Assembly (NCBI RefSeq): GCF_015353075.1
Contig: NZ_CP064187.1
Span: forward strand, 1,984,001-2,048,000
DNA from: Rhizobium sp. 007
GTDB lineage: Bacteria; Pseudomonadota; Alphaproteobacteria; Rhizobiales; Rhizobiaceae
Length of the DNA stretch: 64,000 nt
Reading direction: 5' to 3'
The position numbers and the translations under genes were made by a program. The notes under the pieces were generated by a model that saw only the letters and a list, made by a program, of their open reading frames with translations, was not told where the DNA came from and did no database searches. The stretch's first letter is position 1, and each line of letters starts with the position of its first letter. Of the stretch, positions 1,941 through 29,895 are shown piece by piece.

Positions 1941-3272
1941 CTACTGCGCCGCTTCCTCCGTCATCCTGGCGTCGGAATAGACCTGGTTACGGCCCTTGTG
2001 TTTGGCCATGTAGAGAAACTGGTCGGCGGCGTTGAGGTAATTCTCGAAGGTTTCGTAGCCCGAGATTTCCGCAACGCCGATCGAGATCGTGACCGACAGT
2101 TCCTCGTCGTCGGCAGCCACCTTCAGCCGTGAGATATCCGAGCGGATTTCGTCGCAGAGCTTCGTTGCCGCAGCCGAATCCACCATCGGGAAAAGGATCG
2201 CAAACTCCTCGCCGCCGAGGCGCGAGAGAAGATTGTCGCTGCCTTCGAAGATTGCAGCAAGCCGGCTTGCAACCGCCTTCAGCACCTCGTCGCCGATCTC
2301 GTGGCCATAGGTGTCGTTCAGCCGTTTGAAATGATCGATGTCGAGGATAGCGACTGAACTCGGCGATTTCTGCCTCAGGCACTCGTTCACGACCTTCGGC
2401 CCGTAATCGTAGAAATAGCGGCGGTTATAGAGGCCGGTCAGATAATCGCATGCGGCGGCGGATCGCAGTTGCTTCATCTGCGTCAGCGTTTCGACATTGT
2501 TGGCAATGCGGCACTGAAGCTCCTCGGCCACGAACGGCCTGTAAACGAAGTCGCTGGCGCCGGCCTTCAGGAAGCTTGCCGACAGCATCCGGTCGTTGGA
2601 CGAGGAGATGCCGATGACCCGCATCCTGTCGGAACCGAAGCGATGACGGATTCGCCGTGTCAGCTGATAGCCCGTCATGTCCGGCATGTGATGGTCGGTC
2701 ACTACGAGTTCAATGTCGCTATAGGCCTCAAGCGCAGCCAGAGCTTCGAGCCCCGAGGTTGCCTCGACGACCATGTACTGCTGCGCCTTCAAGAGGTCGA
2801 CGAGCACCTGGCGCGCAGACGGAACGTCATCGACAACGAGGACGCGCGTCTTGCGGTTCAGCATCGCGCGGCGCACGGTCGCGACCAGATTGTCGAGCGC
2901 GAATTCATTGTCCTTGAGGACGTAATCGATGACATTGCGTTCCAGTATCCGGTTGCGGGTCGCGGTATCGAAGGTCGCGGTAAAAACGATCGTGGGAACA
3001 TTGTGCTCGATCGTGCAATCAAGCGCCTCGCCATAGGGCGAATCCGGCAGGTTCAGATCGACGACGGCCATCGTGAAGCCCTGACCGTCCTGCGCCAGAG
3101 CCTCCTGCAGCGCCTTCAGCGAAGAACAGGGTTTGACGTTGAGGCCGAGTTCGGCCTGAAACCGATGGCAGAGCACGGCGGAAAACATCCGGGAATCTTC
3201 AACCAGAAGTAACTTCTGGGTTCCGAAGCGTGGGCCTGAGCCGTCCCGACTGAAATCCGCCTGAAATGCCAT
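1941..3272 (-). CDS. diguanylate cyclase with two receiver domains (PleD-like layout)
   Basis: 443 residues predicted to make cyclic di-GMP. Receiver 1 spans about 20-138 (phosphoacceptor D72 in VVDLNLPD), receiver 2 about 143-262 (VLVVDDV, D193 in VTDHHMPD), and a GGDEF domain about 275-435 with the active-site GGEEF at 353-357 and the preceding DIDHFKRLND metal/substrate motif. The usual RxxD inhibitory site before GGEEF is not seen, suggesting weak product inhibition. The domain order matches PleD, a polarity and cell-cycle regulator in Caulobacter, but orthology is not claimed. The next gene upstream on the same strand is a GGDEF-less paralogue, so the two may share a phosphorelay. The pair's 203-bp spacer suggests separate promoters. 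Confidence 0.93.
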   Translation of the reverse strand: MAFQADFSRDGSGPRFGTQKLLLVEDSRMFSAVLCHRFQAELGLNVKPCSSLKALQEALAQDGQGFTMAVVDLNLPDSPYGEALDCTIEHNVPTIVFTATFDTATRNRILERNVIDYVLKDNEFALDNLVATVRRAMLNRKTRVLVVDDVPSARQVLVDLLKAQQYMVVEATSGLEALAALEAYSDIELVVTDHHMPDMTGYQLTRRIRHRFGSDRMRVIGISSSNDRMLSASFLKAGASDFVYRPFVAEELQCRIANNVETLTQMKQLRSAAACDYLTGLYNRRYFYDYGPKVVNECLRQKSPSSVAILDIDHFKRLNDTYGHEIGDEVLKAVASRLAAIFEGSDNLLSRLGGEEFAILFPMVDSAAATKLCDEIRSDISRLKVAADDEELSVTISIGVAEISGYETFENYLNAADQFLYMAKHKGRNQVYSDARMTEEAAQ

Positions 3273-3475
3273 GCCCCCTACTCTCCCAAGTGCAATGAAA
3301 ACCCGAATCGGCCTTCATTGCGGCGGCAGGGACGATAGCCGAGAGGCCGCAAGGGTTGAAGGGGCAGAACGGCTATAAAGTAACCTCTAATTGCAACAAT
3401 TCGAGATATCTTAACAGCGGCAGGGGGCTCCTCATTCATCCGGGCGGCCTCCTGATACCGGGTTCGATCCTCGAA

Positions 3476-4306
3476 TCAGGCAACGGCCCTCTCCTTCTTC
3501 ATCGTCTGGATCTGCAGCAGCGTGTCGAGGTTTTGGTTGACGCGGCAATAGAACTCCTCGTCGATGAACGGGCGCAGCATGAAATCGTTGCCGCCCGCCT
3601 TGAGAAAGCGCGCCGAAAGCAGCCGGTTAGATGAGGACGAGACGCCGATGATGCGCAGCTGATGCGAGCCGATATTGGCGCGGATGCGCCGCGTAAGCTC
3701 GAAGCCGTCGATATCGGGCATGTTGTAGTCGGTGACCATGAGGCCAATGTCGCGATTGGCCTTCAGGATCTCGAGCGCCTTGGCGCCGCTCTCGGCAACG
3801 CTGACGCGGAAGTTATAGCGCCTCAGGCGGCTGGAGAGCAGCGCGCGCGCCGTGGCGCTGTCGTCCACGATCAGCACGTGATGGCGCTTGTTGGTCAGGA
3901 AACGGCAGATCGCTTCGGCGAGCAGATCGACTGCGAAGATGTTGTCCTTGAGGATGTAGTCGACGATATCCTTCGCCATCAGTTCGTCGCGCAGGCCCTC
4001 GTTGAAGGTGCCGGTAAAGACGATGGTCGGAATGCTGAGATCGACCAGATATTCCAGCGCCTCGCCCTTCTCAGCACCGGGGAGGTTGATGTTGGAGATC
4101 GCGAGCATGATCGGCTCGGAAGACTTGTCGTAAGCAAGCTGCAATTCCTCGAAATTGCGGCAGATCTCGACGTCGATATCGAAAAGCTCTTTCAGCCGTT
4201 TGCTGATCATCGACGTAAAGACATTTGAATCTTCAGCGAGAATAATACGCGCACCAGCAAACATCTCTCCGGAATACTGCATTCCCGAAATGCCTAAAAA
4301 TGACAT
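3476..4306 (-). CDS. dual-receiver response regulator without output domain
   Basis: 276 residues built as two receiver domains and nothing else, co-linear with the first 265 residues of the neighbouring diguanylate cyclase. Receiver 2 is canonical (VLIVDDS, acceptor in VTDYNMPD). Receiver 1 keeps the acidic pair (AEDSN, D26) but has Asn72 where the paralogue has the phosphoacceptor Asp (AISNINLPG versus VVDLNLPD), so it probably cannot be phosphorylated. It may act as a phosphate sink, an adaptor or a dimerisation partner for the cyclase. The gene arose by duplication with loss, or the cyclase by gain, of GGDEF. Identification of the domains is firm; the role is inferred. Confidence 0.88.
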   Translation of the reverse strand: MSFLGISGMQYSGEMFAGARIILAEDSNVFTSMISKRLKELFDIDVEICRNFEELQLAYDKSSEPIMLAISNINLPGAEKGEALEYLVDLSIPTIVFTGTFNEGLRDELMAKDIVDYILKDNIFAVDLLAEAICRFLTNKRHHVLIVDDSATARALLSSRLRRYNFRVSVAESGAKALEILKANRDIGLMVTDYNMPDIDGFELTRRIRANIGSHQLRIIGVSSSSNRLLSARFLKAGGNDFMLRPFIDEEFYCRVNQNLDTLLQIQTMKKERAVA

Positions 4307-4477
4307 AGCAAACCTTTTGATGGAAATTCTGTCCCCGGCCGAACCGATACATCAATTCGTTTGAGTATTTGTTAATCGACGTAGCGCGATGCCATAAGAA
4401 GAAGGCAGTCCGTAAGACCGGCTGCTATTTCTCGACTTATGCTTAAGAGACTATGCGCGAAGGGCTGTGCCGAACGT

Positions 4478-4741
4478 CTACTTGATGATCGCCGAGCCTT
4501 TGACGATCTCGATAGTCTCGCCGCCGCCGAGGCCGATGCGGTCGCCATCCGGCGTCGTCATGAAGCAGCCTGTGGCGCAGAGCGTCTCCGATGCGCCGGC
4601 ATCGACGAAGACCTCGACGCGGTTTCCGCCTTCGGTGACGATAACGACGACCGGTGCCGGATCAGTGTTGGTGATTGTCGCCGCTTCAGCGCCCGCGGCG
4701 ATGAGAAGCGAAAGAAGCATGACCGTGGCAAACCTTGCCAT
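4478..4741 (-). CDS. small secreted hypothetical protein
   Basis: 87 residues with a clear signal peptide (MARFATVMLLSLLIAAGAEA, cleavage likely after AEA). The mature part has two cysteines about four residues apart (ETLCATGCFM) and a Gly-rich C-terminal strand pattern. I do not recognise a family. It probably acts in the periplasm. It stands alone between the response regulator and the mechanosensitive channel gene, both on the same strand. Confidence 0.6.
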   Translation of the reverse strand: MARFATVMLLSLLIAAGAEAATITNTDPAPVVVIVTEGGNRVEVFVDAGASETLCATGCFMTTPDGDRIGLGGGETIEIVKGSAIIK

Positions 4742-4862
4742 TCAGCGCGGCGCAGCGATGCGCCCTCCCCTGGAGCGTCTCGGCGCTGCTGCCCCAGCAG
4801 CGAAATCCCGATTGCCCAGGCTTTATAAGCGAGAGCCTCTGAACGATCCCTGAATAAAATCC

Positions 4863-7403
4863 TTAGCCTTTGCGATTGCCATCGGCCGCTTTGCTGCGCA
4901 GCTGTCGCACCGCTCCGCTGTCCGTCACGCCGGTATCGCCGACAGGCTGTTCGTCTGCTCTTGTCGAGGAAGGTTCCAGCGCCGGAGCAGGCACGTGGTC
5001 GCGGTGAAAAATGACATCGCTCTGCGGCAGCGGGATTTCGATCCCTTCTTCCTTGAAGCGTTTGAGGATGGCGATACGCAGGTTGTTCCTGACGTTCATG
5101 CCCTCGCCCATGTCGGCCAGCATGAAGCGCAGCTCGAAGTCCAGCGAATAGGCGCCGAAACGCAGGAACTCGACATGCGGCTCTGGATTGCGCAGCACGA
5201 ATGGCGCCTCGTTGACCAGCTCCAGGAGGATATCCATGACCTTCTGCGGATCGGCGTCGTAGCTGACGGAAATGGGAATTTCCGAACGGCCGACCTTGTT
5301 GCGGTGTGTCCAGTTGCCGACCGCAGCATTGATGAGTTCGGAGTTCGGCACGATGATCGACTGCTTGCGGAAAGTCTCGATCTCCGTCGCACGCACGGAA
5401 ATGCGCGTCACGATGCCTTCTGCCGTGCCCGAGACGACATGGTCACCGACCTTGAATGGCCGTTCCACAAGCAGGATCAGGCCCGAAACGAAATTCGAAA
5501 CAATGTTCTGCAGGCCGAAACCGATACCGACCGAAAGAGCCGAAGCAACAAGTGCCAGGTTCGAAAGGTCGATACCTGCCGCCGAAACGCCGATGATCGC
5601 TGCAACGGCGACGCCGAGATAACCGATGCCGGTCTTGACGGAATTGCGCACGCCGAGATCGACATGGCTTCGCGCCATGACGTTGCTGTCGAGCCATCGC
5701 TGAACCCAGCGGGTCAAGAAATAACCGCCGGCGAAAAGCAGAATACCGGTAAAGATGCCGAGCAGCGAAATGCTGATCCCGCCGAGGCGGACCTCCGTGA
5801 AAAGACGGTAGGCGATCAGCTGAAGATCCTGGATATGGAAGCCCCAGAGCAACAGGATCAGGGGAATGCCGGTCATGAGCGCAACGGCATAGATCGCAAG
5901 TCCCACGCCAAGGCCGACCTGATCGATCGCCACCGGCCCCATATTGAAGCGGCTCTTCAGGAAACGGCCGATGAAGGTTTCGCCGAAGCTCTCCTGCTTG
6001 GAAATCGCCTTGCCCGAGAGCAGGCCGATATAGGTGGTCACGATGATCGCGCCGGTGATGATGAACTGCGTGGCGACAAAGCGGGCAAGGCCGACATAGC
6101 CGGTCAGCGCGGTCACGATGAGACCTAGGCCGAGCAGGCGAAGGATGATCGCCATGCCGCGCGGCCAGTGGCGCCCTGGCGCATCGGGATCTCCGTCGTG
6201 CGCCAGCATCGGACGCCCGAAGGAGGCCGCGATCAGGATGAGACCGATAATCAGCGCCGCAATCAGGCTTCTGACGACGGTCAAAACCAGCGGTGAGCCC
6301 ATCGCTTCGCTGACGCTGCCGAACAGGTAGTCGAGCGCATTGACAATCGCCATCGCCAGCAGGCAGGCGCCGATCGATTGCGCGCCGCGATTGGAAAGGC
6401 GCACGAGGCGCCACTGCGGCTCCCGGGGAGCGAAGACGGCATTGCTGAAGCGGCCGACGAAATAGATCAGCCCGATCGCTCCGAAAAGAGCGGCGACAAC
6501 AGGCGCAATATCCGGCCTCAACACGTTGAAACCATTGAGGAAGATATATGAGGTCACCAGCACTGCGGCAAGCGCGAAGGTGCGGATCAGCGTCGACCAG
6601 AAGGCAATCGAGAGCCGGCTGATATAGGAAGGATTCTCGACGCCGTCGTCCCGCGTCAGGTAGCGGCCGAACATCCGGTAGCCGCCTGAAAGCATGACCA
6701 GGCCTGTCGCGAGCGACATGAAGATCGCGGCGAACATCGCGAATCGCTTGAACTTCCACACGAAACTCAGCCAGCTCGAAAGTGCCTGCCGGAACTCGCC
6801 AACCTCCTCGACAAAGGCCTTGGCCGCATCGTCGAGCACCGACACCGAAACCTCGGTGCGCCTCAGCAAAGTAGCAGCAAAAAGCCGCCGGCGGGTTTCA
6901 ACCACTTCGTTCATCAGCTGGTTGATGGCAAGCGAGAGGTTTTCGGCATCGCCGGTCACGGCATTGATCTGCGCGCGCTCTGCCGTCAGCGCATTTCGCT
7001 CCTCGGTAACGATCTGCGCTTCCGGCGGCTGTCCCTCCTTCGGCGGATCGCCGAGCTCGGTGAGACGGCTCTTGATCTGATCGAAACGCGGGCGGAGATT
7101 GACGGAGGTCGTGAGAATGTGGCGTCCCAGTTCATCCACCTGCGCGGACAGGCTGACGAGAGCGTCGTCATTGTCGGCGTTCTGCTTCACGCCGTCCTGC
7201 AAGGACGCGAGCTTTGCCTTGGCCTTTTCGATCTCCTTGACTGCTTGGTCGAGCCCCGTATCCGCAAGGGGAGCCGGCGCCTCCGTCTGCGCCTGCGGTT
7301 GCGGCGGCTCCTGCGCAGCCGCAAAGCTGCCAGGCAGACCGGCAGCCGATACTGCAAGCATCAAGCAAAGAAGCGTCCGGAGCAGAATGATTGTCAGCCG
7401 CAA
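4863..7403 (-). CDS. large MscS-family mechanosensitive channel (DUF3772 type)
   Basis: 846 residues. An N-terminal signal peptide precedes a periplasmic coiled-coil region (about 45-200, DUF3772-like). Roughly ten hydrophobic segments follow, then the conserved MscS pore helix and beta domain near 590-700 (SALSVGIGFGLQNIVSNFVSG, then ERPFKVGDHVV) and the cytoplasmic alpha/beta domain (EIPISVSYDADPQ). Such large MscS relatives (like MscK or the DUF3772 proteins) open under hypo-osmotic tension to release solutes. The C-terminal 45 residues are charged and probably disordered. No partner gene is visible; it stands as a single-gene unit. Confidence 0.9.
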   Translation of the reverse strand: MRLTIILLRTLLCLMLAVSAAGLPGSFAAAQEPPQPQAQTEAPAPLADTGLDQAVKEIEKAKAKLASLQDGVKQNADNDDALVSLSAQVDELGRHILTTSVNLRPRFDQIKSRLTELGDPPKEGQPPEAQIVTEERNALTAERAQINAVTGDAENLSLAINQLMNEVVETRRRLFAATLLRRTEVSVSVLDDAAKAFVEEVGEFRQALSSWLSFVWKFKRFAMFAAIFMSLATGLVMLSGGYRMFGRYLTRDDGVENPSYISRLSIAFWSTLIRTFALAAVLVTSYIFLNGFNVLRPDIAPVVAALFGAIGLIYFVGRFSNAVFAPREPQWRLVRLSNRGAQSIGACLLAMAIVNALDYLFGSVSEAMGSPLVLTVVRSLIAALIIGLILIAASFGRPMLAHDGDPDAPGRHWPRGMAIILRLLGLGLIVTALTGYVGLARFVATQFIITGAIIVTTYIGLLSGKAISKQESFGETFIGRFLKSRFNMGPVAIDQVGLGVGLAIYAVALMTGIPLILLLWGFHIQDLQLIAYRLFTEVRLGGISISLLGIFTGILLFAGGYFLTRWVQRWLDSNVMARSHVDLGVRNSVKTGIGYLGVAVAAIIGVSAAGIDLSNLALVASALSVGIGFGLQNIVSNFVSGLILLVERPFKVGDHVVSGTAEGIVTRISVRATEIETFRKQSIIVPNSELINAAVGNWTHRNKVGRSEIPISVSYDADPQKVMDILLELVNEAPFVLRNPEPHVEFLRFGAYSLDFELRFMLADMGEGMNVRNNLRIAILKRFKEEGIEIPLPQSDVIFHRDHVPAPALEPSSTRADEQPVGDTGVTDSGAVRQLRSKAADGNRKG

Positions 7404-7491
7404 AATGTCCCCGCAAGGATTCTGTTCATCAGTGAGGCCTGCTTCTTATAGCAAAGAAAGGCGACAGAAAGGCGGAAGTTGTTTTCGCCGC

Positions 7492-8067
7492 TCAGAAACC
7501 GGCGCCGGGCCTGGCAAGATAATCCAGTTCGGCCGTCGTCGAAACTCTTCCGCTGATGGCGTTGCGGTGCGGAAACCGGCCGTAGGCAGCGATCACGTCG
7601 CGATGGCGAATGGCATAATCGAGATATTCCGCATCGCCAAGCGCCTGAAACAGCATCACCGACCGCTCCTGCTCCGCCATGTCCTCGGCATGCTCGAAAG
7701 GCAGGTAGAAGAATGTCCTGCATTCTTTCTCGACGATCTGATCGGCACCGGCATCGAGCGCCAGTTTCGCCTCGCGCAGCGCCAATCCGTCGGTCGCAAA
7801 CGCAAGCGGCGTGTTCCGATAGATATTCCGCGGAAACTGATCGAGCACGACGACCGCGGCGAGCCGGTTCTGCGGGCTCGCATGCCAGGCGCCGATCACG
7901 CCGCCCGCCAGTGCCAGGTGCGTATCCCGGAAACGGTGCCGAATTTCCTCATCGAGTGAGAGGGTCCTTTCGAACCACTGCTCGCGGCTGCATTCCTCGA
8001 ACCAGAAGGAATACACCTCCTCCGGCGTGCATATCTTGGCCACCGCTCCCCTCCCTGCGCCCGTCAA
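7492..8067 (-). CDS. DUF924 family protein
   Basis: 191 residues of the DUF924 (all-helical, TPR-like) family, recognised by EVYSFWFEE near the N-terminus, VVLDQFPRNIYR in the middle and the FFYLPFEHAED motif. The biochemical function of the family is unknown. The start ATG overlaps the stop of the upstream receiver-kinase gene by four bases (ATGA), so the two are translationally coupled, an arrangement that hints at a shared stimulus. Confidence 0.85.
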   Translation of the reverse strand: MTGAGRGAVAKICTPEEVYSFWFEECSREQWFERTLSLDEEIRHRFRDTHLALAGGVIGAWHASPQNRLAAVVVLDQFPRNIYRNTPLAFATDGLALREAKLALDAGADQIVEKECRTFFYLPFEHAEDMAEQERSVMLFQALGDAEYLDYAIRHRDVIAAYGRFPHRNAISGRVSTTAELDYLARPGAGF

Positions 8068-9119
8068 TCGATGGAAAAGACCAGTATGGCCCGGGTGCCG
8101 CGATGGGCCGGGTCATAGGTCAACTCCGATTTGAGGCTTGCTGCCATCGCGGTCAATATCTTCGTGCCGAGGCCGGTGCCCTTCGCGGGGCTGGAATGGT
8201 CGAAGCCGGCGCCATCGTCCTCCACGACGAGACGCAACTGCTCGCCCGCTTGCTCGACGATGACCCTGATCTCGCCTTCAACACCTTCGTTATAGGCATA
8301 TTTGAAAGCGTTGGTGACGAGTTCGCTGACGATGAGGCCAAGCGTGACGACCTTGTCGGTCGGCAGATCCATCGGCTGGGCGGTCAGAACGATTCGGTGC
8401 GGCCGCTTGTCGTCGCGAATGGAAGCCTCGAGTTCGCTCAAAAGGTTCTCGACATATTCGTCAAGCTGCACGGTGCCGATCTGGCGGCTGTTGTAGAGGC
8501 GCCGGTGGACGCTCGCGATGGCGTTGATGCGCATCTGCGTTTCGTGCAGCGCGTCGATCGCCACCTGGTCCGTCGTCATCGACGACTGCATGCGGATCAG
8601 CGCTCCGACAAGGCCGAGGCTGTTTGCGATACGATGATTGACTTCGGCAAGCAGCATTTCGGCGCGGTCCCTCTGCTGGCGGATCACTTCTTGCGCATCA
8701 GCCGTCTCGCGCCGGTAGCGCGCACGTTCCAGCCCTTGCTCCAGCGTCGCCGCAAGCAGATCGAAATAATCGGGGGAACTGCCCTTGAGGACATAATCGT
8801 CGGCGCCCGCCCTCAACGCCGCAACGGCAATGCCGGTGTCGTCGGAGGCAGTCGCATAGATCACCGGCGGATGATCCGGCAGCGCCATCAATTGCGGCAG
8901 GACATCGAGTCCGGTTTCCGTTTGCAGGAGATGGTCGATCACGACAGCATCGATGCCGCCTTCAGCAATCCGCTTCAATCCGGCCGCGCCGTCTCGCACC
9001 CATTCCACCGCGAAACCATGGCGAGCGAGGTTCTCCTTCAGCCGCAGCGCGAGCGTTTCGTCGTCATCGATGTAAAGGATGCGGATTTCGAGATTCGCAT
9101 CATCAGCCGAGTCACGCAT
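8064..9119 (-). CDS. response regulator-histidine kinase hybrid (HisKA_2/HWE type)
   Basis: About 351 residues. An N-terminal receiver (about 12-130: LYIDDDE, acceptor D62 in VVIDHLL) is followed by a dimerisation domain with the phospho-His motif EVNHRIANSLGLV and a C-terminal HATPase (ELVTNAFKYA N-box, VEDDGAGF, GTGLGTKI). This HisKA_2 form is common in alphaproteobacteria and often feeds the general stress response. The frame is open further upstream, but GGAGG lies five bases before the ATG at 9119, so that start is chosen. It lacks membrane segments and is probably cytoplasmic. Coupled to the DUF924 gene downstream. Confidence 0.9.
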   Translation of the reverse strand: MRDSADDANLEIRILYIDDDETLALRLKENLARHGFAVEWVRDGAAGLKRIAEGGIDAVVIDHLLQTETGLDVLPQLMALPDHPPVIYATASDDTGIAVAALRAGADDYVLKGSSPDYFDLLAATLEQGLERARYRRETADAQEVIRQQRDRAEMLLAEVNHRIANSLGLVGALIRMQSSMTTDQVAIDALHETQMRINAIASVHRRLYNSRQIGTVQLDEYVENLLSELEASIRDDKRPHRIVLTAQPMDLPTDKVVTLGLIVSELVTNAFKYAYNEGVEGEIRVIVEQAGEQLRLVVEDDGAGFDHSSPAKGTGLGTKILTAMAASLKSELTYDPAHRGTRAILVFSID

Positions 9120-9392
9120 TGGGCCTCCGGACTTTGCCAAGCAGCAACGCAACTGCCCGGCGGCCGGGTCGCCTGCATTCGAATGTCGTATTGTATCGGC
9201 CATTGCGCGTAAACAGCGGCAAAGCCTCTGTCCCCCTGCAGACCTTCAATCGAAGGAAGTTCGCATTTGAAATCATGCCGGCAATATGACCCCGCCCGCT
9301 GGAGACTCCGCGGGATAAAAAGATACTGCGAACGCAGAAAGATGCGCAAACCCGAAACTAAACGCGGCCGGACCGGAATGGTTCCATCGCCT

Positions 9393-10856
9393 TCACTTTT
9401 CTTGAAAGCGCTTGTGCTTGGACACTTCCGCGCCGGCATCTGCAGGCAAACTGAAAAAGCGTAACGACGACATGATCCCCATCAGGCCGACCGCCAAAAA
9501 GGCCCAGCGGAAATCGATAAGCGCAGGCTCCAGTGCCGAGCGAAGCGCGGTTGAGATATTAAGCAGAGCCGCCGCAACAGCGACGCCGAGCAGCATGGCG
9601 GCCTGCTGGAGCATGCTTGATAATGTCGAGGCAGAGCTGCGCTGCGCCGGGCTGATATCGGCGAAGGCAAGCGTGTTCAGCGCGGTAAATTCCATCGAGC
9701 GTGAAAGACCGGCCGCAAGCAGGATCGCGTAGATCACCGCCAGCGGCGTATCCGGCGTGAAAAAGCCGCACGCAATGATGCATAAAGCCGCAATCAGCCC
9801 ATTCACGCAAAGGACATTGCGGAATCCGAACTGCGCAAGCAGCGGCGTGGTCACTGCTTTCATGCCGAGATTGCCGAGAAAATAAACCAGCAGGTATGTG
9901 CCCGCGGCAATCGAGTTCAAACCGAAACCGAGCTGGAACAACAGCGGCAGCAGGAAGGGCGTGGCGTTGATCGCTATCCGGCAGGCCGTGCCCGCAGAGA
10001 GCGTCGAAATCGCAAAGGTCTGGACCTTGAACGCCGAGAGGTCGAGCAGCGGATTTTCCACCTTCAGGAAATGCCGGGTGGCCATGACGGAAAGCACGAT
10101 GCCGGTTGCAAGCATGGCAAAGACTAGAAGCAGGCTGCCTTCCCGCTTCACGGAGAGCTCGAGCGCGGCAAGCACGAATGTCATTCCGGCACCGCTCAGG
10201 ATGAAGCCCGGCACATCGAGACGACCCGGGTTCTCTTCGCGCTGCTCCGGCACGAAGCGCAGCACGAGCGCCATGCCGAGAAGGCCAATCGGAATATTGA
10301 TCAGGAAGTTCCAGTGCCAGCTTGCATAGGTTGTGATGAAGCCGCCGAGCACCGGTCCGATGACCGGAGCCGTCAGCGCCGGCCAGGTGATGAGCGCGAT
10401 CGCATTCACCAATTCAGACTTCGGCGCACTCTTCAAAACGATGATGCGCCCGACCGGCGTCATCAGCGCACTTCCGGCGCCCTGGATCGCACGTGCGACG
10501 ATGAATTCCGTAAGACTGCCGGAAAGGCCGCAGAAGAGCGATGCCCCGGTGAAGACGCCAATCGACGCCAGGAATATCCGCCGCGCACCGAAACGGTCGC
10601 CAAGCCAGCCGGAAAGCGGGATGAAAGCCGACATGGACAGCATGTAGACGGTGATGCCGATGCTCATCGAGACCGGCTGCACGCCGAAGCTCGCCGCCAT
10701 CTGCGGCAGCGAGGTCGCGACGATCGTGCCGTCGAGGATTTGCATGAAGAACGATACGGCGACGACCAGCGCAACGATCTTCGCCTGACCTGCGCTCGGC
10801 GCTTCGTCCGTTTTTTCACTCGTCTGTAGTGTTGTCATCGATATGCCATTGCGCAT
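9393..10856 (-). CDS. DHA2-family (14-TM) MFS drug/H+ antiporter
   Basis: 487 residues with about 14 hydrophobic helices and the MFS motif A (LGDRFGARR) after helix 2, plus the motif-C-like stretch WPALTAPVIGPVLGGF of antiporters. This is the EmrB/QacA type, exporting hydrophobic compounds in exchange for protons. No EmrA-like membrane-fusion partner is adjacent. Two starts are possible (10856 or 10838), neither with a good Shine-Dalgarno sequence. Expression may be regulated elsewhere, since no regulator gene is next to it. Confidence 0.88.
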   Translation of the reverse strand: MRNGISMTTLQTSEKTDEAPSAGQAKIVALVVAVSFFMQILDGTIVATSLPQMAASFGVQPVSMSIGITVYMLSMSAFIPLSGWLGDRFGARRIFLASIGVFTGASLFCGLSGSLTEFIVARAIQGAGSALMTPVGRIIVLKSAPKSELVNAIALITWPALTAPVIGPVLGGFITTYASWHWNFLINIPIGLLGMALVLRFVPEQREENPGRLDVPGFILSGAGMTFVLAALELSVKREGSLLLVFAMLATGIVLSVMATRHFLKVENPLLDLSAFKVQTFAISTLSAGTACRIAINATPFLLPLLFQLGFGLNSIAAGTYLLVYFLGNLGMKAVTTPLLAQFGFRNVLCVNGLIAALCIIACGFFTPDTPLAVIYAILLAAGLSRSMEFTALNTLAFADISPAQRSSASTLSSMLQQAAMLLGVAVAAALLNISTALRSALEPALIDFRWAFLAVGLMGIMSSLRFFSLPADAGAEVSKHKRFQEK

Positions 10857-19533: not shown

Positions 19534-20560
19534 CTATACCGGTTTGGCTTCAGGTCGACGATATACTCCGCCTTCGGTAAGCAAGGCCCAGACTATTCTC
19601 GCGGTCTTATTTGCAACTGCGACAGCAGCGACTTTATAGGGCCGCCTGGCAACGAGAGTTTTCAGCCAGGGGCTTGCGTTCCGGCCTATTTTCGCCCCGC
19701 GAAGTACCGCCATAGCACCGAGCACGAGTAATGATCGTAATGTCGGGTTGCCGCGCTTTGAAATTCTCCCGGGTCGGCTCTTGCCGCCGCTATCATGAGC
19801 TCTGGGCGTGAGGCCAAGCCATGATGCAAATTGCCTGCTAGATTTGAAAGCAGCAGGATCTGGTACATATGCCTTGATCGTGGACGCCGTAACTTGTCCC
19901 ACCCCTGGAATCGTCATCAAACGAATAACGTCGTTGTCTGTCCTGGACAACGAGGTGATGTCACGTTCCAAGCGGGCAATTTTCTCTGAGCGCATCGACC
20001 TCATCCAAAATAGCGGAAACTGCATGGCCTACAGCAGAAGGGACGCGACCTGTTTGATCGCCGTCCAAGGACCTCGCTAAAGCCTCTAACCGGACTGTAC
20101 CGGTGCCAACAATCAGTCCGAATTCTGCCAGATGGCTTCGGATGGCATTAAAGGCCTTCGTTCTCTGTCGGATGAACAATGCACGCGTTTTGATCAAAAC
20201 GGTCAGCGCCTGCTGGTCAGCCGTTTTCACAGGCACGAGACGCATTCCCTCTTGTAGTGCAGCAACGGCGATGGCCTGAGCGTCGGCCGCGTCCGTCTTG
20301 TCTCGTTTGACAAATGGCTTGACGTACTGACCGGGTAGAATGATGGCCTTATGCCCCAGTGCTTCAATTTCTCGCGCCCAGTAGTGAGCGCTGCCGCCTG
20401 CTTCCATTGCAACGGCGCATGGTGACAATTGCTGAAAGAACGGCTGCACATCGCTGCGGCGGAGCCTCTTGTTGAAAAGCTTTTTGCCATCGGCGTCCAG
20501 GCCGTGAACTTGGAAAACGTTTTTGGCTAAGTCCAAGCCGATAGTCGCGACTTTCTCCAT
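19534..20560 (-). mobile_element. IS110-family transposase, interrupted by a one-base frameshift
   Basis: The N-terminal frame (20560 to about 19985) has the DEDD-type RuvC-like motifs of IS110 (TIGLDLAKNVFQVHG; KRDKTDAADAQAIA). The C-terminal frame (about 19985-19534) has the transposase_20 helix-hairpin (MTIPGVGQVTASTIKAYV, ASWLGLTPR, SGGKSRPGRISKRG with the conserved Ser). The two join at LRE/KIARLE if one A is added to the A4 run (plus-strand T4 at 19980-19983). The start at 20560 has GAGGAG upstream. About 340 residues when joined. IS110 elements lack terminal inverted repeats, so the ends are not delimited. No paired neighbour gene is broken by it that I can identify. Confidence 0.88.
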
Positions 20561-20782
20561 TGTTAATCTCCTCATGTGGATGGACAGAGGAGCCATATGT
20601 CGACTTCAGTTTCGCAATAATGAAGGCTGCGAAGGAGGATGAAACCGGGCCATCATTATTCGATAGGTGGCGAGTGGCGCCCCTTCGGGCCGAAAACCGC
20701 CTTTGGCAGGCACCGGAGGGCGTGCGAAGCTCGCCGAAAAGCGAATTTGCTTTAAAGTGGCGAGACTTGACTGAGGCGGCGG

Positions 20783-25730: not shown

Positions 25731-26026
25731 GCTAGTTGATCCTCCGGCGTTGCGGACTTTGTCACAGGCGGCTCTATCGGGTAGTAACCGCCCGCCGTCG
25801 CTCCGCTCTGCGTGATCGACTGCACGTAAGACCGCAGGTCCAAATGACCGACACCCAGATATGCGCCGGCGATTCCGAGCACGAAGGCGAAGCCGCTAGC
25901 CGCCACATACGCGGCCTGCAAATAAACGATGGCTAGATAGATCGCGCCCCAAGCAAGCGCGACGTTGATGCCAACGAGCCATTTTGAGAAGCGGCGCTTA
26001 CTTCTTTTTATTGGTGCTACAGTCAT
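25727..26026 (-). CDS. holin-like small membrane protein
   Basis: 99 residues with a basic start (RSKRRFSKW), two transmembrane helices (about 16-36 and 40-60) and a Pro/Thr-rich tail, the topology of class II holins. The ATG at 26026 overlaps the endolysin stop by four bases (ATGA), which places it where a holin is expected. Without homology evidence, holin remains an inference. Confidence 0.6.
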   Translation of the reverse strand: MTVAPIKRSKRRFSKWLVGINVALAWGAIYLAIVYLQAAYVAASGFAFVLGIAGAYLGVGHLDLRSYVQSITQSGATAGGYYPIEPPVTKSATPEDQLA

Positions 26027-26553
26027 AGCCGCCCCGCCACGGCCGCACGCAGCAGATCGCCGCACGCCTTGGCGCCCTTCACTTCAGGCGCGAATGCCAG
26101 CCGCGTGAAATCCCACTTGCCGCGCTGCTTGATCCCCAAGTTCCCCTGCACTTCAGCATGGCTAAGCACAGTGCGGGGCGTGACGGGGATGCCGTAGGCG
26201 TGGCACAAATCCGCCACCACGGAAGCCAACTTGTCCCACTGCGCCTTGGTCATCGGCGACTTGCCGGGATTAAACGGCGCCTCCGTCGCCAGAGCCATGC
26301 AGCACAACGACACGCCGATGCTGCCACTGTTGCAATTCAGCGTGTGAGCGGCATAGCCCTTCTTTGCTGGCGATTCGTTCAGTGCGATCGATGGGCGCCC
26401 GCGCACCACATTGCCATCGGCTTCAATCAGGATGTGATAGTGTTCACGATCGAAATTTGTCGCGTTGTGGCCGCCGGCCGTCCAATGGCAAATCACACGC
26501 TCCATTTGGGCGCGCGGAAGCCACCCCTCGGGCAGCGCAGTTGTGGTGGTCAT
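26023..26553 (-). CDS. phage endolysin, N-acetylmuramoyl-L-alanine amidase (Amidase_2)
   Basis: 176 residues of the zinc amidase_2/PGRP fold. Ligand and catalytic positions can be placed: ICHWTAG (H23), the Tyr/His strand REHYHILIEADG, NSGSIGVSL and LSHAEVQG with the following GKWD. It cleaves the lactyl-L-alanine bond of peptidoglycan. No signal peptide, so it needs a holin. First gene of a five-gene cassette with four-base overlaps. Confidence 0.88.
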   Translation of the reverse strand: MTTTTALPEGWLPRAQMERVICHWTAGGHNATNFDREHYHILIEADGNVVRGRPSIALNESPAKKGYAAHTLNCNSGSIGVSLCCMALATEAPFNPGKSPMTKAQWDKLASVVADLCHAYGIPVTPRTVLSHAEVQGNLGIKQRGKWDFTRLAFAPEVKGAKACGDLLRAAVAGRL

Positions 26554-27094: not shown

Positions 27095-27178
27095 CGTGGC
27101 ATTAGGGAATGGTTTGTGACGGACGAGGGGCGCGCAGAGATCGAACGAATTGATACGTGGCGGGATTGGAAGTTTTAA
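27095..27178 (+). pseudogene. 3' fragment of an excisionase-like gene, paralogue of 18476-18811
   Basis: 27 codons plus stop (RGIREWFVTDEGRAEIER, then TWRDWKF) match the last 27 residues of the 18476-18811 gene at 20 positions, and 61 of 84 bases agree by hand alignment. Nothing recognisable precedes it, so only the end of a second copy survives. The stop abuts the convergent RelA/SpoT-like gene. Confidence 0.65.
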
Positions 27179-28159
27179 CCGTGCAGCCCGTAACCCAACA
27201 GTGAGTACAATGGCGCCAACTCTTCATCGCTTAGGGGACTATCAACTTTTGCGTTCTCGGGAGATCCCGAGATAGCGAAAAGCACAAGTAACACGGCTGG
27301 AACATCGAAAATAAAATCCGATGCATCCCGATTGGCGAGCCTTTCTCTGATGTAAGGCTTTTTGTCGAGCCATTCCCGCAGGTCGGCCGAAAAGTTTGCA
27401 CCCGCAAACTTCTTATAGTGATCGATCAGCCGAGTGTTGAGAGGCGAAGGTATGGGTTCCCGGCCGGTGAGTGCACGATATTCCACCATGAGATCGGCCT
27501 CGACCTCGCGTGCCGACCTTTCTTTGGTGCGGATTATCTCGACCACTTCTGAGAAGTAATCGTCAGTCGCTTCGATGAGTGCCATGCTCTTGGCCGCGGC
27601 ACGCATCATCTCCGGAGTAGTGGCAACGGAGGGCTTGTATATCGTGTCGTGCGTCAGCTCACTGTATGCATGTTGGAGCAATGTCCGAACTTGAATCTCA
27701 CATGGAAGATCTGCCGGGAGATCCACCCCCGTGTTTCAAACCCGGTTTCGACCGGACTACGTAATGCAGTGACTGATAGTCGAAGACGGAGGGGTTGGCC
27801 TGTCGCTCTAACTCGAAGTCTCGAGCCTTATCCGCGGTCCAATAAGCGGTTGCGCTCTCAATGCATTTTCCTATCAGGCGGACATCTTCGTTCAGCAATA
27901 CAACAAACCTCACACCGACTTTATCTTCGATGTCATTGTAGGGATCGGCATACTTTTTCCGGATGAAAGCTTTCTGAACAAGCGACTCCTCCGTCTTCAC
28001 ACGGGGGACGACAGGCATACGTAGAAACAGCCCCAAGCCTGTGGGGGCTAGTTCCACCGTTAGCAACTGCACAATCTTGTCGACAACGAAATGGCCCCAA
28101 GCATCATACACGGGGCGCTCACGTTGCCATCGTTCGACAAAAGCCTTTCGATCAGTCAC
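27175..28159 (-). pseudogene. RelA/SpoT-type nucleotidyltransferase, frameshifted
   Basis: Two frames join into about 327 residues. Frame 1 (GTG 28159 to about 27730) carries the synthetase motifs VPRVKTEESLVQKAF, DIEDKVGVRF and FDYQSLHYVV. Frame 2 (about 27730-27175) carries CEIQVRTLLQHAYSELTHD and YKPS, then a helical C-terminus. These match the (p)ppGpp-synthetase core (ATP-binding basic loop, metal Asp, Tyr/Ser/His strand, EIQxRT). There is no HD hydrolase domain, so it is a small-alarmone-synthetase-like or toxSAS-like protein. One extra G in the G5 run (plus-strand C5 at 27726-27730) breaks the frame. GTGA couples it to the NA37 gene upstream. Confidence 0.82.
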
Positions 28160-29228
28160 AGCTGATCGGTCATCGTTCGATTAATGGTGATCTGGATCCA
28201 CATTTGTTTGCCTTCGCCTCCAAACTCCTCAGCGGGAGCTTCTTTGATTGTAACTTCGTGGTTGTGCAACAATTCGGGCGGTACAGAAAACTCGATATTG
28301 TCACCGAATTAAAATTTCCTTCTCCTAAGCCGGGCGCCCATCTCGGCGGTATCCCTGACTACAGCCCGCTCGGGGAAGCGTTTCGACACCATGAAACGCT
28401 TGTAGGCGTCCTTTTGGTCGTTGGGCAGATACTTGTCTGCGAATTCGTGGGTAGTAAAGGTCGCTGCCTGCTCGGTCTTTACGAAAGTATAGAGCGCATC
28501 TCCGAGGTCGCGCTTCTTGTCAGGTGAAAACGGCCCGCGTCGCACAACTCTTTGGTCAGGTCGTAGAAGCGTGAGGTCTCGTATGCACCATTTGCTGGGA
28601 ACAAGCAGCCAAAGAAGCTCTCGTAAAAGTATTGAGCAGCTGTTTCGCGGTGCGAACTCGAAATGTTGCTGTCGAAGATTATTGCTCGCCAGTAGAAACC
28701 GTCATCTTTGGGTTCCTGAACGAGAAAGCCGATTTTATACAATCGGGTGGCCGGCGTGAGAAAGATGTTGTCGAGGAATTCGGTAAGAATTTTCTCCGCG
28801 TTTTTGCTGCGTCGGAAGCCGCTCTGCGTTTCGGCCTTAATCACTCCCAGGAATTTTCGTTCAGGAACACCGAAGGATCCGTCGAATGCGATTACCACTC
28901 CTCCGGGAATGCTTCTCGCTTTCTGAGCAGATGCAAGACGCACCGCAATTTCCTTAGATACTTCAAGAAAATCAGTGTCATCAAGGTCGATAAGCCGGCC
29001 GGCGATATCGACCATGCTGCTAGCTGAAAAGTCAGAGATATGCATTTCAATGCTCTTTGACTGCGTCGACAGCGCTTCCGTTACTCGGAGCGTGAAGGCT
29101 CCCTTTGCCGCCGCCTCCAAATCTTCAAGCGCTTCACCGTACACGGGATCTTTTGGCTGCCTGTCGTCATCACGTTTCAACACCTCGTGCATGACCACGC
29201 GGTTAATCTTGAGGTTCTCCAGCTGCAT
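28156..29228 (-). pseudogene. NA37/YejK (NdpA)-family nucleoid-associated protein, broken
   Basis: Ancestral length about 357 residues. Segment 1 (ATG 29228 to about 28530) begins MQLENLKINRVVMHEV, as in the NA37 family, and contains FYWRAIIFDSNISS and a helical region. Segment 2 (about 28530-28309) continues SPDKKRDLGDALYTF, FTTHEFADKYLPN and KRFPERAVVRD. Segment 3 (28306-28156) reads FGDNIEFSVPPELLHNHEVT and ends TMTDQL. Lesions are a missing T in the coding-strand T4 run (plus A4 at 28527-28530) and an in-frame TAA at 28309-28311. YejK proteins bind nucleoid DNA; some occur in phage-defence neighbourhoods. Overlaps the RelA/SpoT-like gene by four bases. Confidence 0.8.
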
Positions 29229-29496: not shown

Positions 29497-29661
29497 TTAT
29501 GGTCCGAGCGATAGGAGCTTCTCGGCGCCAGCAAACCGATATTTGAGCCTCCAATGTTTTCCACCGGCCGGCGTGACATGGACGTAGAGCCCGCCGCTGT
29601 CGCTTAGTTTATAGGCCTTATCTTTCGCTGCTGCTTTTTTGATCGCTGTGTCGGTCAGCAC
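29497..29661 (-). pseudogene. N-terminal remnant of the island's P4-type tyrosine integrase
   Basis: 54 residues from GTG 29661 (GGGGG upstream) reading LTDTAIKKAAAKDKAYKLSD, then GGLYVHVTPAGGKHWRLKYR and AGAEKLLSLGP, then TAA. This is the arm-DNA-binding (DUF4102) domain of P4/CP4-57-type integrases, about the first 55 of 400 residues; the catalytic RHRHY part is missing. Its position 165 bp from the tRNA and orientation match an integrase of this island. The element can no longer excise by itself. Confidence 0.82.
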
Positions 29662-29710: not shown

Positions 29711-29816
29711 CTTGTGGGCTTGGGTGAATAAGATTGGCAACACATGGAAACAAAGAACCGCAAGAAGGCGTGAGTTTCAAGGCTTCTGGCAATTCATGAA
29801 CTAGCATGGGAAAGAT

Positions 29817-29895
<79 letters not shown>

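Follow-up and report, generated by a model that had tools for sequence, protein, structure and literature searches.

Two overlapping genes, one for a nucleoid-associated protein of the NA37 (YejK-like) family and one for a RelA/SpoT synthetase, lie in pieces in a 64,000-nt stretch of Rhizobium sp. 007 (NZ_CP064187.1, positions 1,984,001-2,048,000; hereafter the window, whose positions are used for all coordinates of the pair). This locus raises the question of whether the two genes are chance neighbours left as debris or the remains of a functional module and, if the latter, what such a module does. The evidence presented below favors, with a probability of roughly 0.55, the degraded remnant of a mobile module of two genes, carried as cargo by prophages and integrative elements and serving most likely in anti-phage defence, with NA37 controlling the synthetase.

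The gene pair in the window

The fragments of both genes occupy the minus strand between 27175 and 29228. NA37 begins with an N-terminal open reading frame of 249 aa (28479..29228; PF04245, E 7.9e-5; phrog_1974, 8.9e-22; family profile positions 1-237 of 359), continues after a frameshift in a middle piece that ends at an in-frame stop (28309..28545; phrog_1974, 8.3e-5; positions 230-308), and closes with a C-terminal remnant past that stop (28156..28308; positions 310-358). The synthetase consists of an N-terminal piece containing the ATP-binding and G-loop motifs (27698..28159; PF04607, 8.9e-7; phrog_32462; profile positions 3-145 of 329) and, after a frameshift, a C-terminal piece (27175..27726; phrog_32462, 3.5e-29; positions 145-327). 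As read from the sequence, the GTGA at 28156-28159 combines the ancestral NA37 stop with the synthetase start in a 4-bp overlap. A first-pass annotation of this DNA had proposed exactly such a coupled pair, with both genes broken by small lesions, and both claims are borne out: NA37 carries one frameshift and one in-frame stop and the synthetase one frameshift, as placed by intact relatives (P0002 and P0003 for NA37; P0123 for the synthetase). For example, the intact NA37 of R. laguerreae, P0003, shares 88 and 86% identity with the two window parts, and its alignment runs gap-free across the stop at 28309, while the synthetase frameshift is located by P0123 (328 aa) and P0124 (annotated with 297 aa). 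The RelA_SpoT Pfam score of the window synthetase is above the cut-off; the truncated NA37 piece falls slightly below the PF04245 cut-off (22.6 versus 24.6 bits), which intact relatives exceed (44.8 bits in L003 and 64.1 bits in Escherichia coli L025). The module in Rhizobium sp. 007 is dead.

Linkage and co-inheritance of NA37 and the synthetase

The first-pass annotation had suggested that adjacent NA37 and RelA/SpoT genes be sought in other genomes, and the pair does recur, with near-perfect linkage and mostly overlapping genes, in proteobacterial prophages, genomic islands and plasmids. A search based on NA37 recovered 15 genome loci, 14 of which have an adjoining synthetase; the fifteenth (L017) is a truncated NA37. 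Conversely, a synthetase-based search of IMG/VR returned 53 contigs (four of them already recovered with NA37), and an NA37 match lies directly upstream in 51, among them L075, which is the same contig as L019. The remaining two contigs (L113 and L125) start 6 and 12 bases before the synthetase match, and in three of the 51 the upstream NA37 is partial or broken (L089, L091 and L124, the last with both genes broken). A comparison of whole genomes, which reaches further than the IMG/VR search, covered 42 synthetase loci. NA37 is present at the four matches of at least 360 bits, two of which are the records of L011 and L014, as well as at the window's own two entries. Beyond these 42, two further strong matches, G1210 and G1300, likewise have NA37. 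It is absent within ~1.5 kb of the other 36 of the 42, which score at most 113 bits and comprise long Rel proteins and different small synthetases; one of the 36 (L064) ends at a contig edge ~170 bases upstream. Ten more weak matches lie outside the 42. Two of these other small synthetases without NA37 within ~1.5 kb, L043 (in G870; 113 bits) and L044 (in G993; 89 bits), possibly represent sister families with other partners.

Overlap of the two genes is the rule. Of 21 related loci, 19 show a 4-bp overlap between the synthetase start and the NA37 stop. Among 49 classified members of the viral set (near-copies included), 25 overlap by 4 bp and 20 by 1 bp, the other four having a different arrangement. 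From 79 loci, 72 have both genes near full length, and 57 distinct pairs remain after dropping synthetases that are at least 90% identical. Across these 57, divergence of NA37 closely tracks that of the synthetase (Mantel r 0.928; none of 2000 permutations as high), which shows inheritance as a unit rather than physical contact. Sixteen of the 17 synthetase motif positions that were checked are invariant in all 57, whereas the seventeenth (position 68) has R in 39 pairs and is gapped in the other 18. NA37 and a hydrolase-less alarmone synthetase are therefore encoded as an overlapping unit, inherited together, with the motif residues kept.

A SLATT gene accompanies some copies

A gene for a two-helix SLATT protein (in L025, SLATT_1 at 86.9 bits against a cut-off of 41) stands alongside the pair in 10 of 78 loci and in nine of the 57 distinct pairs; it should be noted that six of the ten loci supplied the SLATT profile and match by construction. 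In seven of the nine distinct pairs the gene lies just upstream, in L072 it is convergent, and in L117 it is directly downstream. On a tree built from the joined proteins, SLATT has to change three times, and well-supported branches force two of these changes. That the gene recurs beside the pair in differing arrangements speaks for a functional link between SLATT and the pair. A third gene common to all copies was considered and rejected, SLATT being present in only those 10 of 78 loci and absent from the alphaproteobacterial clade.

Distribution and genomic setting of the module

Synthetases of the module type are rare, occurring in 3 of 397, 3 of 398 and 3 of 369 genomes (with G000 and G838 each counted twice). 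NA37 was found in one of 61 relatives searched, and PF04245 in one of 289 alphaproteobacteria, namely the window's own genome (7.6 Mb in five contigs), which shares its order with Cohaesibacter (G607, from which L014 comes). Among 5426 E. coli genomes, a pair of DNA queries, which would miss more distant versions, retrieved the module from 3 and 2 others. The first three copies include the SLATT gene and reside in integrase islands at tRNA-Thr; in strain SCU-102 they are followed by PsyrA and PsyrT (562 and 1044 bits). Two others (L725 and CEC15) are found in a P2-like prophage adjoining guaA, between an ogr-like gene with a helix-turn-helix (HTH) gene and late gene D, with no annotated SLATT gene beside the pair.

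Some proviral carriers are lambdoid. Judged by profiles, the module of provirus L099 sits between the antiterminator Q and the lysis genes (holin/lysozyme/Rz), and L098 and L101 have the same Q/lysozyme setting, with Q 78 and 96% and lysozyme 75 and 79% identical to those of L099. The module lies between tail genes in L123 and between portal and capsid genes in L014, adjoins a holin in L126, and has a capsid gene ~4 kb away in L088. Integrase genes occur within ~5 kb in L003, L008, L019, L020, L071 and L085 (a weak match in the last), and the module is also present on plasmids. Isolated phages were rejected as carriers, with no NA37 match in 50,697 records. The same records gave no match to the window's synthetase piece and three weak ones to a Klebsiella synthetase. 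Since isolated-phage records are without NA37 of the module kind, the carrier phages are known from proviruses.

Seven of ten neighbouring proteins have PADLOC matches at E 1e-10 or better, the models being those of a type I specificity subunit, of the endonuclease and methyltransferase of a type III system, and of components of candidate systems; these ten were picked by eye. In L018 (5091-7139), two genes adjoining the module match the candidate defence systems PDC-M30/M41.

Decayed copies such as the window locus, L124 and L026, with its split synthetase, suggest frequent loss of the module. L026, a Neisseria gonorrhoeae record, is a decayed module near CRISPR-associated genes: from 2979 to 10488 it holds an HTH gene, NA37, the split synthetase, and then Cas_Csd1 (the first 271 of 559 positions) and Cas4. 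Separately, a 3.5-kb ColRNAI plasmid of Klebsiella (NZ_CP058965.1) contains a RelA/SpoT-like region (2444-3061; E 1e-9) in its largest listed gene, which is called hypothetical.

The island around the window locus

The first-pass annotation had placed the pair next to an integrase. Integrase sequence does adjoin it, but only as a 54-residue N-terminal remnant, the arm DNA-binding domain of a tyrosine-type enzyme (29500..29661, minus strand; PF13356, E 7e-13), which over 52 residues shares 50% identity with the integrase that lies close to the Mesorhizobium L008 module. Beyond it lies a tRNA-Lys(CTT) gene predicted by ARAGORN (29820..29895, minus strand). The similarity of relatives' loci to the window begins at 29807-29820, the 3' end of this tRNA gene, in 18 of the 19 loci fetched (the other starts at a contig edge), and for this reason the tRNA-Lys gene is taken as the right end of the island. 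The left end was not found, and no direct repeats of at least 18 bp are present within 10-32 kb. In the tRNA-Lys regions of G018 and G001, exact second copies of the tRNA end (49 and 47 bases) lie ~50 and ~39 kb from the gene, which suggests that elements of this genus have integrated repeatedly at this tRNA-Lys. On the other side of the module, the next recognised gene encodes a phage-type, endolysin-like amidase (26023..26553, minus strand; PF01510, E 4e-16). An IS110-family transposase in two frames (19534-20596) is a further sign of island decay.

Proposed mechanism and alternative explanations

The order of the genes and their overlap are what one would expect of a controller with its effector encoded downstream. 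In the mechanism that we propose, NA37 would keep the synthetase inactive or park it on DNA until infection releases it, the trigger perhaps being altered DNA topology, the phage DNA itself, or the binding of NA37 by a phage protein. The freed synthetase would then move pyrophosphate from ATP onto a nucleotide or onto tRNA, growth would halt, and the infecting phage would not be produced. A nucleotide product is the likelier of the two because the core of the enzyme is RelP/RelQ-like, and it agrees well with SLATT proteins being predicted to respond to nucleotides (PMC7159879); in SLATT-bearing versions, the small membrane protein may provide a second, nucleotide-triggered arm. YejK is a DNA-binding protein that also interacts with topoisomerase IV (Lee and Marians, cited in PMC10561277), and in CapRel a phage capsid protein lifts the inhibition of a prophage-borne synthetase (PMC9712102), to which the restraint or positioning of a synthetase by NA37 until infection would be a parallel. 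A more specific version of this model, in which the module constitutes a new class of prophage-borne immunity, with a YejK-type protein that senses invading DNA or its topology and turns on the alarmone synthetase, the resulting nucleotide arresting the cell and opening a SLATT pore where one is present, is less likely than not.

Several observations weigh against the defence model. The synthetase frame of L016 is open although its NA37 is frameshifted, and in L089/L091 (identical there) an open synthetase frame accompanies an NA37 without its usual N-terminal half; unless sequence errors are involved, these loci argue against NA37 as an indispensable antitoxin. Loci found through NA37 supplied the synthetase profile (A2), so that the IMG/VR search is biased toward NA37-linked kin, and the defence neighbours, selected by eye rather than at random, are an illustration and no measure of enrichment. 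Likewise, three NA37 queries yielded nothing from the isolated-phage records, and PADLOC-DB 2.0.0 has no model matching the NA37 of the relatives and gives their synthetase only a weak PDC-S33 match (36 bits). As a separate observation on L089 (3179-4033; also L091), upstream of the open synthetase frame, the C-terminal half of NA37 is fused in frame to a segment with a likeness to the palm of DNA polymerase beta, a weak match at 19.7 bits that is below the cut-off.

Among the alternatives, the least unlikely is that prophage-encoded (p)ppGpp and a nucleoid protein slow the host, making lysogeny more stable or setting the time of induction, and play no part against other phages. Against this explanation stands the presence of the module on plasmids and in integrase islands whose visible stretch contains neither tail nor capsid genes, in one case beside PsyrTA, together with a SLATT gene in nine of the 57 distinct pairs. 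Somewhat less probable still is a plain toxin-antitoxin system that stabilises its element, with the synthetase as toxin, NA37 as antitoxin and no sensing of phage. The antitoxin-first order, the overlap and the mobile, patchy spread would all be expected of such a system, but NA37, at ~355 aa and YejK-like along its length, is large and unlike small antitoxins, and synthetase frames outlive damaged NA37 genes in L016 and L089. Mere adjacency of two unrelated genes, or an error in assembling this genome, is very improbable: both being broken is what neutral debris would look like, but linkage in 57 distinct pairs excludes chance, so that the pairing part is already refuted, and the damage sits in an otherwise decayed island with its split IS110 transposase and integrase remnant.

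If the defence model is right, a recurrent and unnamed anti-phage module joins those carried by temperate phages, the YejK fold gains a role outside the housekeeping nucleoid, and alarmone chemistry becomes tied to DNA sensing. The 57 distinct near-full-length pairs, including those of E. coli in a P2-like prophage and beside PsyrTA, make the module testable now.

Comparison with known systems

The window pieces match no model of PADLOC-DB 2.0.0 up to E 1, and the SLATT protein of the relatives has a weak match to the '2TM effector'. Among the matches listed, the pair is unnamed in PADLOC, NCBIfam and the literature searched, in keeping with the first-pass annotation, which had not recognised it as a named system; an earlier mention in Burroughs et al. 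2015/2020 is possible.

The same annotation had likened the synthetase, said to be without a hydrolase domain, to toxic small alarmone synthetases (toxSAS). The domain statement holds, with no hydrolase domain found in the window synthetase and PF04607 as the only domain of the intact 328-aa relative, and hydrolase-less RelA/SpoT proteins with ATP-site and G-loop residues are indeed what FaRel2, PhRel and CapRel-SJ46 have in common with the module; CapRel and PhRel are also carried by temperate phages (PMC9712102, PMC11782079). The intact 328-aa synthetase keeps the catalytic SYNTH residues, a feature that is not diagnostic, being found alike in non-toxic small alarmone synthetases. Gene order and overlap would also be compatible with a toxin that its neighbour neutralises. 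The likeness is, however, weaker than implied: the fold appears nearest to the ppGpp synthetases RelP/RelQ, with CapRel ranking lower, and the core resembles RelP/RelQ more than the tRNA-modifying toxSAS. The partner also differs, being NA37 rather than a pseudo-zinc-finger, Panacea or hydrolase antitoxin, and the module is at most a candidate member of toxSAS. The C-terminal helical part of ~115 residues has no match listed and was not searched on its own.

The module proteins also differ from RelP/RelQ and from YejK. Identity to RelP/RelQ is 18-22%, the module synthetase has a paired gene and a C-terminal extension, and three relatives score 37.6, 42.2 and 34.8 bits against a RelQ (YjbM) equivalog cut-off of 320. 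Similarly, module NA37 is 16% identical to E. coli YejK/NdpA, is rare and mobile rather than housekeeping, and scores 24.1 and 20.7 bits against a YejK equivalog cut-off of 341, with no match in L099. Two further comparisons were set aside. KwaB of Kiwa (KwaAB) as an NA37 relative is a suggestive second structural match, but with an hhalign probability of 0.35% against six proteins found with PF16162 it is a lead only; PseuP_222/224 (PMC10305613) place NdpA/YejK beside an integrase, and neither "pyrophosphokinase" nor "alarmone" occurs in the main text of that paper.

The SLATT-linked nucleotide-signal systems of Burroughs and Aravind, in which a SLATT protein predicted to be a nucleotide-responsive pore stands beside a nucleotide-making enzyme (PMC7159879), resemble the SLATT-bearing pairs. 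They differ from the module in that only nine of its 57 distinct pairs have SLATT, and the word "nucleoid" is absent from the main text of that paper. Taken together, the component families are known, the pairing is unnamed in the libraries and literature searched, and the module is best classed with the alarmone-synthetase effector modules.
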